Assembly: GCF_004570345.1 (NCBI RefSeq)
Contig: NZ_SPQM01000196.1
Coordinates: forward strand, 1-7,131
DNA: 7,131 bases
Direction: 5' to 3'
DNA from: Blastococcus sp. CT_GayMR20
GTDB taxonomy: Bacteria; Actinomycetota; Actinomycetes; Mycobacteriales; Geodermatophilaceae
Part shown: piece after piece, positions 1-7,131 of the stretch
Layout: every line of letters begins with the position of its first letter
Position numbering within the stretch: position 1 is the stretch's first letter
The notes under the pieces: generated by a model
Databases searched by the model: none
Told to the model about the DNA's origin: nothing
Seen by the model: only the letters and a program-made list of their open reading frames with translations
Made by a program: the position numbers and the translations under genes

Positions 1-1
1 G

Positions 2-40
2 ATCTCCGCCGCCGTCGCCCGCTGGCGCGCGCTCGGCTGA
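2..40 (+). CDS. C-terminal tail of an unidentified upstream gene (partial)
   Basis: Frame 2 reads 12 codons ending in Trp-Arg-Ala-Leu-Gly and a TGA at 38-40, 51 bases before the purN start. The gene begins outside the window. In mycobacteria the gene before purN encodes a large multi-spanning membrane protein, and this could be the end of its homologue, but 12 residues cannot confirm that. Call and frame are tentative. Confidence 0.35.
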   Translation: MSAAVARWRALG

Positions 41-78
41 ACCCGACCCGGCCCGTCGGCGGCCGGAGCCGTCCCGGC

Positions 79-84
79 TAGGGT
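79..84 (+). promoter_or_regulatory. Putative -10 box of a leaderless purN promoter
   Basis: TAGGGT fits the actinobacterial TANNNT -10 consensus and lies 7 bases before the GTG start of purN at 92. That spacing would place transcription initiation at or next to the start codon, giving a leaderless mRNA, a common arrangement in actinobacteria. In agreement, there is no Shine-Dalgarno-like tract in the 7 intervening bases. No convincing -35 hexamer is visible 16-19 bases upstream. It would drive purN and the overlapping purH. Confidence 0.5.
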
Positions 85-91
85 CGCGGTC

Positions 92-703
92 GTGTCCGCA
101 GCCGTCCCCGACCCGCGGGCGCGGGTGGTCGTGCTGCTCTCGGGCGCCGGCTCGCTGTGCGCGGCGCTGCTGGACGCGACCGACGACCCGGCCTACCCCG
201 CGACGGTCGCCGCCGTCGGCAGCGACCGCCCCGCCACGGGTCTGGAGCACGCCCGGCGACGGGGTCTGCCCACGTTCGTCTGCGAGGTGGGGGACCACGC
301 CGACCGCTCCGCCTGGGACCGGGCCCTGGCCGCGGAGATCGGCGCGCACGCGCCGGACCTCGTGGTCTCGGCCGGCTTCATGAAGATCGTCGGCCCCGCC
401 GTGCTCGGCGCGTTCGGCGGCCGGCTGATCAACACCCATCCCGCCCTGCTGCCGGCGTTCCCCGGCGCACACGCCGTCCGCGACGCGCTCGCCGCCGGCG
501 TCCCGGTGACCGGGGCGAGCGTGCACGTCGTCGACGCAGGCGTCGACACCGGCCCCGTGCTCGCCCGGCGCGAGGTGGCCGTGCTGCCCGGGGACGACGA
601 GGCGCGACTGCACGAACGGATCAAGGAAGCGGAGCGCGAGCTCCTGGTGGAGACGGTGGCGCACGTCGTCACCGCCGATGTAGCGAGGAAGAGCGACCGA
701 TGA
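92..703 (+). CDS. purN: Phosphoribosylglycinamide formyltransferase (GAR transformylase)
   Basis: PurN transfers a formyl group from 10-formyl-tetrahydrofolate to GAR, giving FGAR, the third step of cytosolic de novo purine synthesis. The 203-residue product is close to the usual ~210. An N-terminal nucleotide-fold strand (residues 11-17) leads into the phosphate-binding loop SGAGSL (17-22). E. coli has Asn where this has Leu, but Ser-Leu is normal in actinobacteria. The formyltransferase signature is intact: [13 protein letters not shown] (113-125) supplies the catalytic Asn114 and His116, and DAGVDTGPV (148-156) supplies the catalytic Asp152. The GTG at 92 was chosen because a -10 box lies just upstream and the first strand begins 10 residues in. 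The stop overlaps the purH start by 4 bases (ATGA), indicating translational coupling. An identical copy lies at 6429-7040 on the minus strand. Confidence 0.95.
685..690 (+). promoter_or_regulatory. Shine-Dalgarno site of purH
   Basis: GAGGAA inside the last codons of purN lies 9 bases before the ATG at 700. It supports starting purH at the ATGA overlap rather than at any upstream in-frame start, whose extension would be a low-complexity Arg/Ala/Gly-rich shadow of purN. Confidence 0.6.
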
Positions 704-2250
704 GCGACCGCACCCCGATCCGCCGCGCCCTCCTGGGCGTCTACGACAAGACCGGTGTGGAGGAACTGGCCGCGGGCCTGGCCGCCGCGGGCGTCGAGCT
801 GGTGAGCACCGGCGCGACCGCCCGGCGGATCGCGGAGGCGGGCATCCCGGTGACGCCCGTCGAGCAGGTCACCGGCTTCCCCGAGTGCCTCGACGGCCGC
901 GTGAAGACGCTGCACCCCGCCGTCCACGCCGGGATCCTGGCCGACCGGCGCAAGCCCGACCACGTGCGGCAGCTGGAGGAGCTGGGCATCGCGCCGTTCG
1001 ACCTGGTCGTGGTGAACCTGTACCCGTTCACCGAGACCGTCTCCTCGGGTGCGAGCCCCGACGAGTGCGTGGAGCAGATCGACATCGGGGGCCCGGCCAT
1101 GGTGCGCGCCTCGGCCAAGAACCACCCGTCGGTCGCTGTCGTCGTGGACCCCGCCCGGTACGCCGACGTCCTCACCGCCGTGGCCGCGGGAGGCTTCACC
1201 CTCGCCGAGCGGCAGAAGCTGGCCGCGGCTGCGTTCCGGCACACCGCCACGTACGACATCGCGGTCGCCTCGTGGCTGGGCAACGTCGTCGCGCCGGACG
1301 ACGACAGCGGCTTCCCCGCCTGGGTGGGCGCCACCTGGGACCGGGCCGACGTCCTCCGCTACGGCGAGAACCCGCACCAGCGTGCGGCGCTCTACCGCAG
1401 CTGGCAGCCCGGGCTCGCGCACGCCGAGCAGTTGCACGGCAAGGAGATGTCCTACAACAACTACGTCGACACCGACGCCGCCTGGCGGGCCGCGCACGAC
1501 CACACCGACCCGTGCGTGGCGATCATCAAGCACGCCAACCCGTGCGGGATCGCCGTCGGCCCCGACATCGCCTCCGCCCACCGCAAGGCGCACGCGTGCG
1601 ACCCCATCTCCGCCTTCGGCGGCGTGATCGCGGCCAACCGGGAGATCGACCTGATGATGGCCGAGCAGGTGTCGGAGGTGTTCACCGAGGTCGTCGTTGC
1701 GCCGTCCTTCACCGACGACGCGGTGCGCGTGCTGACCGGGAAGAAGAACGTCCGGCTGCTCCGCAACCCGCACATCCCCGCACCCGGCGCCGAGATGCGA
1801 CCGATCAGCGGCGGCCTGCTGCTGCAGGTGAAGGACAGCCTGGACGCTCCCGGCGACGACCCGACCACGTGGACGCTGGCGGCCGGGGAGCCGCTCGACG
1901 CGGCGGGCCTGGACGACCTCGTGTTCGCCTGGCGCGCCGTGCGGGCGGTGAAGAGCAACGCCATCCTGCTCGCGCACGACCGCGCGACCGTCGGGGTGGG
2001 GATGGGCCAGGTCAACCGCGTGGACGCCGCCCGGCTGGCCGTCAGCCGGGCGGGGGAGCGGGCGGGCGGGTCGGTCGCGGCGTCCGACGCGTTCTTCCCG
2101 TTCGCCGACGGCCTGCAGGTCCTGCTCAAGGCGGGCGTGCGGGCCGTCGTCCAGCCGGGTGGTTCCGTCCGGGACGACGAGGTCGTGGCCGCGGCGGCCG
2201 CGGCCGGCGTCCCGCTGTACCTGACCGGCACCCGCCACTTCGCGCATTGA
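700..2250 (+). CDS. purH: Bifunctional AICAR transformylase / IMP cyclohydrolase
   Basis: PurH catalyses the last two steps to IMP: AICAR is formylated with 10-formyl-tetrahydrofolate to FAICAR, then cyclised. The 516 residues match a full-length family member. The N-terminal IMP cyclohydrolase (MGS-like) domain covers about 1-145 and has YDKTG (15-19), STGAT (36-40), [10 protein letters not shown] (64-73), NLYPF (106-110) and [16 protein letters not shown] (127-142). The AICAR transformylase domain follows, with RYGENPHQ (220-227), [11 protein letters not shown] (245-255) and the catalytic Lys277-His278 pair in IIKHANPCG (275-283). [14 protein letters not shown] (304-317), [10 protein letters not shown] (462-471) and VQPGGSVRD (484-492) complete it, ending in a typical TRHFAH C-terminus. 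No key motif is missing. It overlaps purN by 4 bases, so the two are co-translated. A second copy lies at 4882-6432. Confidence 0.97.
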
Positions 2251-2256
2251 TGAAGG

Positions 2257-2360
2257 ACCCCCTCGCCCCCCGCCACTCGCAGGCTCGCAGCGGGCCCCTG
2301 CGAAGGGGCCACATGGCCCCCACCCCTCGCGAGCTCGGGGCGGGCCCCTCCATGGGGCCG
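2257..2360 (+). repeat. GC-rich tandem hairpin repeat downstream of purH
   Basis: Two imperfect ~40-base units (about 2271-2310 and 2320-2359) share CTCGC, GCTCG, GCGGGCCCCT and a closing GGGGCC, and differ by small indels. Each contains a stem-loop. The first, 2293-2310, has a 7-bp stem (GGCCCCT/AGGGGCC) closing a GCGA (GNRA-type) loop. The second, 2343-2359, has a 6-bp stem (GGCCCC/GGGGCC) around TCCAT. The two are joined by another small palindrome (GGCC-ACAT-GGCC). There is no T tract, so this is not a classical intrinsic terminator. It looks like a REP-like dispersed intergenic element. It could attenuate transcription, protect the 3' end of purH mRNA, or slow read-through into the next gene. 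It also overlaps the possible starts of that gene. Confidence 0.6.
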
Positions 2361-2981
2361 AGAGCGCACGTCGCGCCGCCGGAGGACGGTACCGAGGTCG
2401 AGGGGGCGGACTTCGCCCGCGTCGACTGGTGGGGCGCGGAGCTGGAGGGCGTCACCTTCACCCGCTGCCGATTCGACGACGCCTCGCTCGAGGAGCTGGT
2501 CACCCGGCGCTGCGTGTTCGACGGCTGCGTGCTCACCGGCGTGCGGTTGGGAGGGTCGCGGCACACGGGGACGGCGTTCCTGTCCTGCCGGTTCGACCGC
2601 GCCCGGCTGATCGACGTCACCTGGGACGGCTGCAAGCTCACCGGCTCGCAGTTCCCGGGCGCCCAGTTGCGGCCGATGACGGCCATCGACTGCGACTGGA
2701 GCTACACCGCGCTCCGCGGCGCGGACCTCTCCGGGCTCGACCTGGCCGGGCAGCGCTTCCGCGAGGCGGACTTCACCGACGCCGACCTGCGGGAGTGCGA
2801 CCTGACCGGCGCGAACCTCGACCGGGCCCGGCTGCAGTCGACGAAGCTGCGCGGGGCGGACCTGCGCGGCGCCTCGATGGACGAGGTCAACTGGCGCGCG
2901 TTCGAGCTCACCGGCGTGCGGATCGACCTCGTGCAGTCGGTGCAGTTCGCCCGAGCCCACGGCGCGCTCGTCGCCGACTGA
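2313..2981 (+). CDS. Pentapeptide-repeat protein of unknown function
   Basis: After a ~28-residue Pro/Gly-rich head, residues 29-195 show the A(D/N)LXX periodicity of a right-handed quadrilateral beta-helix. The best repeats are at 136-195 (RGADL, EADFT, DADLR, GANLD, RARLQ, RGADL, RGASM). The 45-130 section is a degenerate, Cys-rich version with the same spacing (CRF, CVF, CKL, CDW). A short non-repeat C-terminal helix region (residues 202-222) closes it. There is no signal peptide or membrane segment, so it is probably cytosolic. Some family members mimic DNA and protect gyrase, but nothing here shows that role. The start is uncertain: ATG 2313 has AGGGG at 2304-2308; ATG 2250 overlaps the purH stop but would translate the whole hairpin repeat; ATG 2352 lies just after the repeat. 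The stop abuts the stop of the convergent membrane gene with no gap. An identical copy lies at 4151-4819. Confidence 0.8.
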   Translation: MAPTPRELGAGPSMGPRAHVAPPEDGTEVEGADFARVDWWGAELEGVTFTRCRFDDASLEELVTRRCVFDGCVLTGVRLGGSRHTGTAFLSCRFDRARLIDVTWDGCKLTGSQFPGAQLRPMTAIDCDWSYTALRGADLSGLDLAGQRFREADFTDADLRECDLTGANLDRARLQSTKLRGADLRGASMDEVNWRAFELTGVRIDLVQSVQFARAHGALVAD

Positions 2982-3527
2982 CTACGCGACCTTGGGCTTG
3001 GTGAGGATCGCCTTGATCGAGCCGAGCAGGCCGAGGACGGCGACGCCGATGCCGCACCAGAACCCGGAGCCGAAGAACCCGAGGTCCCAGTTGGCCTTGT
3101 CGTCGGCGAGCGGCACGAGGATGCCGGCGGTGACGACGAGGCTCACCAGCAGTCCCAGGACGCCGAAGAAGCGGTGCGAGCGCATCGGCAGCCACATCAG
3201 CAGGCCGAGCAGGAAAAGGACGCCGCCGCCGAGCACGATCGCCAGCGGCTGCCACAGCCCGTTGTCGAAGACGCTCCCGAGGTCGTCGAACGCCTCCCGC
3301 ACGAAGCTCCAGCCCGAGGCGTCGTCGTCCGCGAGCCAGTCCAGCAGCAGGCTCACCCCCGCGGCGATCCCGGCGAGGATCAGGAGCAGGCCACCGAGGC
3401 TCTCCGGCCCGCGGAAGGCAACCGGGCGATCGGAGTACCGGGGTGCGGTGAAGTCCGTGGTGGCCGGCTCCCCGCCGCTGTACGCGCTGGCTCCGACGGG
3501 CTGGCCGGGCGGGTGCTGCTCGCTCAT
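2982..3527 (-). CDS. Four-helix membrane protein of unknown function (intact copy)
   Basis: I do not recognise a named family. The 181-residue product has a polar, Pro/Gly/Ser-rich N-terminal tail (1-40) without a signal peptide. It is followed by four hydrophobic segments at about 44-63, 93-113, 120-140 and 155-173. An acidic loop (64-92, rich in Asp) lies between the first two, and a second acidic patch (141-148) lies before the last; the C-terminus is short and basic (Lys-Pro-Lys-Val-Ala). It is probably a small integral membrane protein of the cytoplasmic membrane. The ATG at 3527 is chosen over an upstream in-frame GTG at 3620 because GGAGG at 3533-3537 sits 5 bases before it. It is convergent with, and directly abuts, the pentapeptide gene, and is divergent from folD. 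Co-location with purine and folate genes does not by itself give a function. Confidence 0.85.
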   Translation of the reverse strand: MSEQHPPGQPVGASAYSGGEPATTDFTAPRYSDRPVAFRGPESLGGLLLILAGIAAGVSLLLDWLADDDASGWSFVREAFDDLGSVFDNGLWQPLAIVLGGGVLFLLGLLMWLPMRSHRFFGVLGLLVSLVVTAGILVPLADDKANWDLGFFGSGFWCGIGVAVLGLLGSIKAILTKPKVA

Positions 3528-3620
3528 GCGTGCCTCCGGTTCGGCGGGGCCGGGTTGGACCGCTGTCCTGAGACTAGGACTGCCCGGCCGGTCGCGTGAC
3601 CCCTCCGGCACACTGGGCAC
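3528..3620. promoter_or_regulatory. Divergent intergenic region between membrane gene and folD
   Basis: These 93 bases separate the divergent starts of the membrane-protein gene (minus) and folD (plus). A TANNNT -10 candidate for the membrane gene, TAGTCT, reads on the minus strand at 3576-3571 and would leave a leader of about 35-40 bases carrying the GGAGG site. It lies inside a small inverted repeat, GTCCT-N6-AGGAC (3565-3580), which could be an operator. For folD, CACACT at 3609-3614 is 6 bases before the GTG and is a weak -10 candidate for a leaderless start. No good -35 hexamer is visible for either direction. Confidence 0.4.
3533..3537 (-). promoter_or_regulatory. Shine-Dalgarno site of the membrane-protein gene
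   Basis: GGAGG on the minus strand lies 5 bases before the ATG at 3527. This is the clearest ribosome-binding site in the window. It decides the start against the longer reading frame that would begin at 3620 within the folD start region. It lies in the unique spacer, so the right-hand copy of the gene has lost it. Confidence 0.75.
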
Positions 3621-3653
3621 GTGCCCGCGACGATCCTCGACGGCAAGGCGACG
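3621..3653 (+). pseudogene. folD: 5' fragment of folD, cut by the inversion junction
   Basis: From the GTG at 3621 the frame reads VPATILDGKATAA, the characteristic FolD N-terminus (compare LDGKAT in mycobacterial and streptomycete FolD). FolD is the bifunctional 5,10-methylene-THF dehydrogenase / methenyl-THF cyclohydrolase that makes 10-formyl-THF, the cofactor used by PurN and PurH. Eleven codons lie entirely in unique sequence; codons 12-13 (GCG GCG) are shared with the inverted arm. Beyond that the frame runs through the reversed membrane gene and stops at 3750-3752. A normal FolD has about 285 residues, so essentially the whole enzyme is missing. Identification rests on a short but distinctive motif plus the expected neighbourhood. 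Confidence 0.75.
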
Positions 3654-4150
3654 GCGGCGGGGAGCCGGCCACCACGGACTTCACCGCACCCCGGTACTCC
3701 GATCGCCCGGTTGCCTTCCGCGGGCCGGAGAGCCTCGGTGGCCTGCTCCTGATCCTCGCCGGGATCGCCGCGGGGGTGAGCCTGCTGCTGGACTGGCTCG
3801 CGGACGACGACGCCTCGGGCTGGAGCTTCGTGCGGGAGGCGTTCGACGACCTCGGGAGCGTCTTCGACAACGGGCTGTGGCAGCCGCTGGCGATCGTGCT
3901 CGGCGGCGGCGTCCTTTTCCTGCTCGGCCTGCTGATGTGGCTGCCGATGCGCTCGCACCGCTTCTTCGGCGTCCTGGGACTGCTGGTGAGCCTCGTCGTC
4001 ACCGCCGGCATCCTCGTGCCGCTCGCCGACGACAAGGCCAACTGGGACCTCGGGTTCTTCGGCTCCGGGTTCTGGTGCGGCATCGGCGTCGCCGTCCTCG
4101 GCCTGCTCGGCTCGATCAAGGCGATCCTCACCAAGCCCAAGGTCGCGTAG
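3654..4150 (+). pseudogene. N-terminally truncated duplicate of the four-helix membrane protein
   Basis: The right-arm copy keeps residues 18-181, including all four hydrophobic segments, but lacks the first 16 residues, the ATG and the GGAGG site; codon 17 is changed from Ser to Gly at the junction. A continuous frame can be opened from a GTG at 3596 (an artificial 184-residue product). Its first 20 or so residues come from the folD upstream region read in the wrong frame and look like random Arg/Pro-rich sequence. No Shine-Dalgarno supports that start. Treat it as a junction product, not a real gene. Confidence 0.85.
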
Positions 4151-4819
4151 TCAGTCGGCGACGAGCGCGCCGTGGGCTCGGGCGAACTGCACCGACTGCA
4201 CGAGGTCGATCCGCACGCCGGTGAGCTCGAACGCGCGCCAGTTGACCTCGTCCATCGAGGCGCCGCGCAGGTCCGCCCCGCGCAGCTTCGTCGACTGCAG
4301 CCGGGCCCGGTCGAGGTTCGCGCCGGTCAGGTCGCACTCCCGCAGGTCGGCGTCGGTGAAGTCCGCCTCGCGGAAGCGCTGCCCGGCCAGGTCGAGCCCG
4401 GAGAGGTCCGCGCCGCGGAGCGCGGTGTAGCTCCAGTCGCAGTCGATGGCCGTCATCGGCCGCAACTGGGCGCCCGGGAACTGCGAGCCGGTGAGCTTGC
4501 AGCCGTCCCAGGTGACGTCGATCAGCCGGGCGCGGTCGAACCGGCAGGACAGGAACGCCGTCCCCGTGTGCCGCGACCCTCCCAACCGCACGCCGGTGAG
4601 CACGCAGCCGTCGAACACGCAGCGCCGGGTGACCAGCTCCTCGAGCGAGGCGTCGTCGAATCGGCAGCGGGTGAAGGTGACGCCCTCCAGCTCCGCGCCC
4701 CACCAGTCGACGCGGGCGAAGTCCGCCCCCTCGACCTCGGTACCGTCCTCCGGCGGCGCGACGTGCGCTCTCGGCCCCATGGAGGGGCCCGCCCCGAGCT
4801 CGCGAGGGGTGGGGGCCAT
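4151..4819 (-). CDS. Pentapeptide-repeat protein, right-arm copy
   Basis: This has the same 222-residue sequence as the gene at 2313-2981, with the same start ambiguity (alternatives at 4882 and 4780). Its stop abuts the stop of the truncated membrane gene at 4150, so the convergent arrangement is kept. The beta-helix repeats are intact. If the arm is real the organism would have two identical copies; if it is a chimera this entry is redundant. Confidence 0.75.
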   Translation of the reverse strand: MAPTPRELGAGPSMGPRAHVAPPEDGTEVEGADFARVDWWGAELEGVTFTRCRFDDASLEELVTRRCVFDGCVLTGVRLGGSRHTGTAFLSCRFDRARLIDVTWDGCKLTGSQFPGAQLRPMTAIDCDWSYTALRGADLSGLDLAGQRFREADFTDADLRECDLTGANLDRARLQSTKLRGADLRGASMDEVNWRAFELTGVRIDLVQSVQFARAHGALVAD

Positions 4820-4875
4820 GTGGCCCCTTCGCAGGGGCCCGCTGCGAGCCTGCGAGTGGCGGGGGGCGAGGGGGT
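4772..4875 (-). repeat. GC-rich tandem hairpin repeat, right-arm copy
   Basis: Mirror of the element after purH. The stem-loops fall at 4773-4789 (6-bp stem) and 4822-4839 (7-bp stem with the four-base loop). Both units and the linking palindrome are identical to the left copy, so this adds no independent example of the repeat. Confidence 0.6.
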
Positions 4876-4881
4876 CCTTCA

Positions 4882-6432
4882 TCAATGCGCGAAGTGGCGG
4901 GTGCCGGTCAGGTACAGCGGGACGCCGGCCGCGGCCGCCGCGGCCACGACCTCGTCGTCCCGGACGGAACCACCCGGCTGGACGACGGCCCGCACGCCCG
5001 CCTTGAGCAGGACCTGCAGGCCGTCGGCGAACGGGAAGAACGCGTCGGACGCCGCGACCGACCCGCCCGCCCGCTCCCCCGCCCGGCTGACGGCCAGCCG
5101 GGCGGCGTCCACGCGGTTGACCTGGCCCATCCCCACCCCGACGGTCGCGCGGTCGTGCGCGAGCAGGATGGCGTTGCTCTTCACCGCCCGCACGGCGCGC
5201 CAGGCGAACACGAGGTCGTCCAGGCCCGCCGCGTCGAGCGGCTCCCCGGCCGCCAGCGTCCACGTGGTCGGGTCGTCGCCGGGAGCGTCCAGGCTGTCCT
5301 TCACCTGCAGCAGCAGGCCGCCGCTGATCGGTCGCATCTCGGCGCCGGGTGCGGGGATGTGCGGGTTGCGGAGCAGCCGGACGTTCTTCTTCCCGGTCAG
5401 CACGCGCACCGCGTCGTCGGTGAAGGACGGCGCAACGACGACCTCGGTGAACACCTCCGACACCTGCTCGGCCATCATCAGGTCGATCTCCCGGTTGGCC
5501 GCGATCACGCCGCCGAAGGCGGAGATGGGGTCGCACGCGTGCGCCTTGCGGTGGGCGGAGGCGATGTCGGGGCCGACGGCGATCCCGCACGGGTTGGCGT
5601 GCTTGATGATCGCCACGCACGGGTCGGTGTGGTCGTGCGCGGCCCGCCAGGCGGCGTCGGTGTCGACGTAGTTGTTGTAGGACATCTCCTTGCCGTGCAA
5701 CTGCTCGGCGTGCGCGAGCCCGGGCTGCCAGCTGCGGTAGAGCGCCGCACGCTGGTGCGGGTTCTCGCCGTAGCGGAGGACGTCGGCCCGGTCCCAGGTG
5801 GCGCCCACCCAGGCGGGGAAGCCGCTGTCGTCGTCCGGCGCGACGACGTTGCCCAGCCACGAGGCGACCGCGATGTCGTACGTGGCGGTGTGCCGGAACG
5901 CAGCCGCGGCCAGCTTCTGCCGCTCGGCGAGGGTGAAGCCTCCCGCGGCCACGGCGGTGAGGACGTCGGCGTACCGGGCGGGGTCCACGACGACAGCGAC
6001 CGACGGGTGGTTCTTGGCCGAGGCGCGCACCATGGCCGGGCCCCCGATGTCGATCTGCTCCACGCACTCGTCGGGGCTCGCACCCGAGGAGACGGTCTCG
6101 GTGAACGGGTACAGGTTCACCACGACCAGGTCGAACGGCGCGATGCCCAGCTCCTCCAGCTGCCGCACGTGGTCGGGCTTGCGCCGGTCGGCCAGGATCC
6201 CGGCGTGGACGGCGGGGTGCAGCGTCTTCACGCGGCCGTCGAGGCACTCGGGGAAGCCGGTGACCTGCTCGACGGGCGTCACCGGGATGCCCGCCTCCGC
6301 GATCCGCCGGGCGGTCGCGCCGGTGCTCACCAGCTCGACGCCCGCGGCGGCCAGGCCCGCGGCCAGTTCCTCCACACCGGTCTTGTCGTAGACGCCCAGG
6401 AGGGCGCGGCGGATCGGGGTGCGGTCGCTCAT
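4882..6432 (-). CDS. purH: Bifunctional AICAR transformylase / IMP cyclohydrolase, right-arm copy
   Basis: A full-length 516-residue duplicate of the purH at 700-2250, identical throughout, including the Lys277-His278 catalytic pair. The purN-purH ATGA overlap (6429-6432) and the GAGGAA ribosome-binding site (6442-6447) are preserved. Bacteria normally carry one purH, and an identical second copy facing the first about 2.6 kb away would be unusual. This is one reason to suspect that the arm is a technical duplicate. Confidence 0.93.
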
Positions 6433-7040
6433 CGGTCGCTCTTCCTCGCTACATCGGCGGTGACGACGTGCGCCACCGTCTCCACCAGGAGCTCGCGCTC
6501 CGCTTCCTTGATCCGTTCGTGCAGTCGCGCCTCGTCGTCCCCGGGCAGCACGGCCACCTCGCGCCGGGCGAGCACGGGGCCGGTGTCGACGCCTGCGTCG
6601 ACGACGTGCACGCTCGCCCCGGTCACCGGGACGCCGGCGGCGAGCGCGTCGCGGACGGCGTGTGCGCCGGGGAACGCCGGCAGCAGGGCGGGATGGGTGT
6701 TGATCAGCCGGCCGCCGAACGCGCCGAGCACGGCGGGGCCGACGATCTTCATGAAGCCGGCCGAGACCACGAGGTCCGGCGCGTGCGCGCCGATCTCCGC
6801 GGCCAGGGCCCGGTCCCAGGCGGAGCGGTCGGCGTGGTCCCCCACCTCGCAGACGAACGTGGGCAGACCCCGTCGCCGGGCGTGCTCCAGACCCGTGGCG
6901 GGGCGGTCGCTGCCGACGGCGGCGACCGTCGCGGGGTAGGCCGGGTCGTCGGTCGCGTCCAGCAGCGCCGCGCACAGCGAGCCGGCGCCCGAGAGCAGCA
7001 CGACCACCCGCGCCCGCGGGTCGGGGACGGCTGCGGACAC
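6429..7040 (-). CDS. purN: Phosphoribosylglycinamide formyltransferase, right-arm copy
   Basis: A complete 203-residue duplicate of the purN at 92-703 with the same GTG start (7040-7038), the same Asn114/His116/Asp152 catalytic set and the same 4-base overlap with purH. It reads inward from the right edge, so the two purN-purH blocks converge on the palindrome centre. Confidence 0.92.
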
Positions 7041-7047
7041 GACCGCG

Positions 7048-7053
7048 ACCCTA
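7048..7053 (-). promoter_or_regulatory. Putative -10 box of purN, right-arm copy
   Basis: TAGGGT on the minus strand, 7 bases before the GTG of the right-hand purN; mirror of the site at 79-84. The whole upstream segment to the window edge is duplicated, so this copy would be expressed if it exists in the cell. Confidence 0.45.
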
Positions 7054-7091
7054 GCCGGGACGGCTCCGGCCGCCGACGGGCCGGGTCGGGT

Positions 7092-7130
7092 TCAGCCGAG
7101 CGCGCGCCAGCGGGCGACGGCGGCGGAGAT
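7092..7130 (-). CDS. C-terminal tail of the unidentified gene before purN, right-arm copy
   Basis: Twelve codons plus TGA on the minus strand, identical to 2-40. The duplication therefore extends upstream of the purine genes into the preceding gene and probably beyond the window, or the source contig ends here. Confidence 0.3.
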   Translation of the reverse strand: MSAAVARWRALG

Positions 7131-7131
7131 C

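Follow-up and report, generated by a model that had tools for sequence, protein, structure and literature searches.

The window, by which we mean the whole 7,131-nt stretch of DNA analysed here, is a palindrome that most likely represents a laboratory DNA-amplification artefact and not a genuine feature of a genome. We place at roughly 0.88 the probability that the contig is an in vitro fold-back (inverted) chimera, most likely generated by phi29 polymerase in multiple displacement amplification (MDA), that was then assembled as genomic sequence. This conclusion is drawn because the window, which ends exactly with the arms, shows no unique flank, the arms have not diverged, and no relative seen carries such a structure; it is drawn also because the inverted joint, its 6-nt homology, and the short distance it spans resemble published phi29 chimeras.

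A comparison of the window with its own reverse complement revealed two arms that are exact reverse complements of each other, separated by a unique spacer of 175 nt that contains every one of the 111 mismatching positions (Table 1). Divergence between the arms, which the first-pass annotation had named as an argument for real copies, amounts to 0 differences in 3478 bases. The anatomy given in that annotation (3,478-bp arms around a 175-bp spacer, spanning the whole window) agrees with this self-comparison to the base, and the 3481-nt arms and 169-nt gap reported by a repeat finder reflect its extension across one mismatch at the inner edge. A chance origin of a perfect 3.5-kb inverted match is ruled out. 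The palindrome reaches both ends of the window with no unique flank visible on either side, and both ends correspond to the same genomic base, located within the final 12 codons of the gene that precedes purN. An assembler that collapses identical arms also yields coinciding contig ends, whether the arms are real or not, so that such ends are not decisive. A cut site was considered for the GATC found at both ends and rejected, as the arm contains 22 GATC sites, 21 of them internal and uncut.

Table 1 Features of the 7,131-nt window and the evidence for each.
Feature	Position	Strand	Evidence
Arm 1, native-order copy	1–3478	+	Identity to reverse complement of 3654–7131
End of gene upstream of purN (last 12 codons and stop)	Left end of arm 1		Comparison with relatives
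purN (phosphoribosylglycinamide formyltransferase)	92–703	+	TIGR00639, 206.2 bits (cut-off 150.1)
purH (AICAR formyltransferase/IMP cyclohydrolase)	700–2250	+	TIGR00355, 552.5 bits (cut-off 528); NF002049, 714 bits (cut-off 402)
Pentapeptide-repeat gene, longest frame	2250–2981	+	Pfam Pentapeptide, 107 bits (cut-off 20.2); translation
Small membrane-protein gene, complete solely in the arm 1 copy	2982–3527	-	Translation
Unique spacer (membrane gene 5′ end, intergenic region, folD start)	3479–3653	.	Holds all mismatches
folD, first 13 codons, ended by the joint	3621–3659	+	Translation; aligns with folD starts of relatives
GCGGCG, inverted homology at the joint	3654–3659	.	Fits folD fragment end and mirrored arm edge
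Arm 2, inverted copy	3654–7131	-	Exact reverse complement of arm 1; ORF list
Arm 2 membrane gene, 5′ end missing	3654–4150		ORF list
Arm 2 pentapeptide gene	4151–4882		ORF list
Arm 2 purH	4882–6432		ORF list
Arm 2 purN	6429–7040		ORF list

A single arm is a normal Blastococcus-type chromosomal segment. The pentapeptide gene likelier starts at an in-frame ATG at position 2352, past a dispersed repeat described below, than at the start of its longest frame. Its product falls far below the cut-offs of both MfpA and Qnr (139.6 bits against 360 for MfpA, the nearest NCBIfam model), and we therefore make no resistance claim. In the relatives seen, a gene for a pentapeptide-repeat protein adjoins purH. 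The small gene that follows encodes a predicted membrane protein, as read from the sequence, which matches no Pfam or NCBIfam family over its curated cut-off (Pfam DUF6114 scores below the cut-off, and NCBIfam gives none). A scan of genome contigs for this protein confirmed 6 loci among 83 pattern matches, all in Blastococcus records and with 59–74% protein identity. In a large protein search 788 proteins passed, and the top one is 93% identical (best 120 of the 788). These matches indicate that the source is Blastococcus or a near relative.

The native locus was surveyed in 20 genomes, 16 of the genus and four reached solely via the membrane-protein contig scan. The membrane gene is present in 19 of the 20, with no match in G019. 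At the best locus of each genome, the pentapeptide gene lies beside the membrane gene in 19/19, and folD flanks the membrane gene on the opposite side in 17/19; folD was not found there in G001, where 6 kb of flank was seen (L001), or in G007, where about 1.5 kb was seen (L016). In eight genomes there is also a more distant membrane-protein relative (44–54% identical), without these neighbours in the fetched stretch. Exactly one match to purH was found in 14 of the 16 genus genomes and none in G017 and G019. A search for long inverted self-matches (E ≤ 1e-20) gave 0 among 35 fetched stretches (L001–L035), several of which overlap, being drawn from the same genomes; the window itself, serving as positive control, was found at full length.

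The joint between spacer and arm 2 lies inside folD. The folD fragment consists of a GTG start codon followed, in translation, by PATILDGKATAA. Past position 3659, folD stops and the membrane gene follows in reverse complement; the arm 2 copy of that gene therefore lacks its 5′ end. The hexamer GCGGCG at the joint recurs in inverted sense ~175 nt back, and the two bases preceding it match again after one mismatch. The joined inverted segments lie 175–181 nt apart. The equivalent folD codons read GCGGCG in four of the relatives' loci (L003, L004, L005, and L006) and GCTGCG in L002, while L001 aligns poorly at this point. L001 also appears diverged straight after its folD-like start. We infer the 6-nt homology from the folD genes of these relatives and not from the strain's own native folD. 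Local inverted joints drawn at random 50–599 nt apart reach at least 6 nt of homology in 0.40–0.56% of cases (seven sequences, 20,000 draws for each), and an incidental homology at the joint is unlikely. Joint homology alone cannot separate an in vitro from an in vivo origin, since cells use such short homologies too. The truncation of folD at this homology, together with the single-copy state of the relatives, supports the earlier ranking of an amplification or library artefact above a recent real duplication.

We infer the in vitro origin, the enzyme, and the steps of formation for a contig whose anatomy is seen directly. Copying of a Blastococcus-type chromosome would have produced a strand that runs across purN, purH, the pentapeptide gene, and the membrane gene and ends 13 codons into folD. 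Its freed 3′ end (...GCGGCG) would then anneal to a complementary site that lies ~175 nt back on a strand belonging to the same molecule, and extension of the annealed end would copy the segment backwards. In the final assembly both contig ends would fall on one genomic base, which may be where the copied strand stopped or may result from collapse of the two arms by the assembler.

A very improbable alternative is a library or assembly artefact made without MDA, by template switching at another step, by a long-read strand-fold read, or by an assembler path running twice through the arm. A collapsed-repeat path explains the coinciding ends, and mirrored contigs have elsewhere been termed assembly artefacts (PMC12755884). 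A pure assembler error, however, leaves the new joint within folD at a 6-nt homology unexplained, and a strand-fold read or a hairpin telomere would be expected to leave almost no spacer, where 175 nt are found. The long-read hairpin and the linear-replicon end, both offered as options in the first-pass annotation, probably fit less well because a unique 175-nt loop separates the arms.

It is also very improbable that a genuine inverted duplication arose very recently in the cell, through fold-back replication at this 6-nt homology, with arms still identical because of their youth. Fold-back inversions have been studied as a class in human and yeast genomes (PMC3907307, PMC7467729), and both the zero differences between the arms and the homology at the joint are compatible with such an event. 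No observation here favours it, however. A unique flank is seen on neither side, the window ending exactly with the arms; a comparable structure occurs in 0 of the 35 relatives' stretches, and the purH counts show no doubling; folD is cut in the sole copy seen; and the inter-arm differences of older copies are absent, although a very young copy would look alike. Long near-perfect palindromes are also generally unstable in bacteria. A natural Blastococcus-type population with a fresh fold-back duplication, in which purN-purH is doubled and one folD is cut, before divergence or loss, is hardly to be expected. A genuine duplication would constitute a bacterial palindrome of unusually young age, observed before its decay.

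Linear replicons with hairpin telomeres and palindromic plasmids can carry large inverted repeats, but a linear replicon end or an amplified palindromic plasmid is extremely improbable here, given a content of conserved purine-synthesis DNA whose chromosomal neighbours are those found in relatives, the lack of a replication protein in family scans of the four arm proteins, and two weak tests that gave no match, one of window 2250–3900 against plasmids at megablast sensitivity and the other of the exact 41-base joint against viral contigs (0 matches); a chromosomal chimera is expected in neither collection.

Directly 3′ of the purH stop lies a dispersed GC-rich hairpin repeat (2250–2310, followed by a diverged second unit that extends to about 2362, the whole mirrored at 4770–4882), which is a better lead than the palindrome. 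In the eight Blastococcus-group genomes searched, it has from at least 17 to at least 42 matches per genome, counts that are lower bounds because at most 40 candidates were scored in each. The repeat begins -6 to +2 nt from a stop codon in 26 of 30 fetched copies (L036–L065), where a stop codon counts if the frame that it closes stays open for at least 120 codons; for random positions in these stretches the corresponding figure is 121 of 6000. When the 30 copies were aligned with that of the window, an 8-bp outer stem emerged. Column pairs 12–56, 13–55, 14–54, and 15–53 vary on both sides and are paired in 27, 30, 30, and 30 of the 31 rows, respectively, among copies picked by similarity, with a stem predicted on the same alignment and a few rows shifted. 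In the window's own copy, pair 12–56 is broken, and its 113-nt repeat stretch has only a mild folding advantage over shuffled sequences (z -1.72; 12 of the 200 shuffles fold as well). No Rfam family reaches threshold in window 1–3660, and a literature search on Blastococcus and repetitive extragenic palindromic elements listed a single BOX-PCR paper, which is no proof that the element is unpublished. Our guess is that the repeat may act as a transcription terminator or an mRNA 3′-end hairpin, possibly lineage-specific.

Through contigs of this kind, databases acquire spurious gene duplications and spurious gene ends; in this case purN, purH, and the pentapeptide gene are doubled and folD contributes a false fragment. 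Such contigs could be flagged simply, as contigs equal to their own reverse complement outside a short loop, with an inverted homology of a few nucleotides at the inner edge.

Arm 1 plus the spacer reproduces the gene order and strands of the native purN-purH-pentapeptide-membrane gene-folD locus of Blastococcus, the larger aligned segments being about 74–85% identical in DNA. The native locus differs in having no inverted duplication in the stretches seen, and its folD continues in 17 of 19 genomes. Artificial palindromes have been called frequent in whole-genome amplification (PMC6218980), and contigs in which the second half exactly mirrors the first were taken out of single-cell genomes because they were very probably assembly artefacts (PMC12755884). 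Those contigs are mirrored like the present one, but the available portion of that paper describes no spacer or joint, whereas a 175-nt central spacer is found here; the same portion attributes the mirrored contigs to assembly and does not name MDA. The inverted chimeras of phi29 MDA are known from reads, whereas the present case would be a whole assembled contig with a presumed amplification step. When a single E. coli cell was amplified by MDA, inverted chimeras reportedly made up 406 of the 475 that were mapped, and priming complementarity accompanied 93.5% of the inverted chimeras less than 10 kb apart (PMC1855051). A short-read reanalysis of MDA chimeras gave an overlap that peaks at 6 nt, mostly 5–8, and a distance that peaks at 250–300 nt but extends from 0 to more than 5,000 (PMC4595205). 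These published statistics would favour phi29 MDA over other in vitro template switching. The contig shares with the phi29 chimeras neighbouring segments joined in inverted orientation, a homology of a few nucleotides, and a short distance (PMC1855051, PMC4595205): its distance of 175–181 nt is below the peak but inside the published range, and its overlap of 6 nt coincides with the published peak (PMC4595205).
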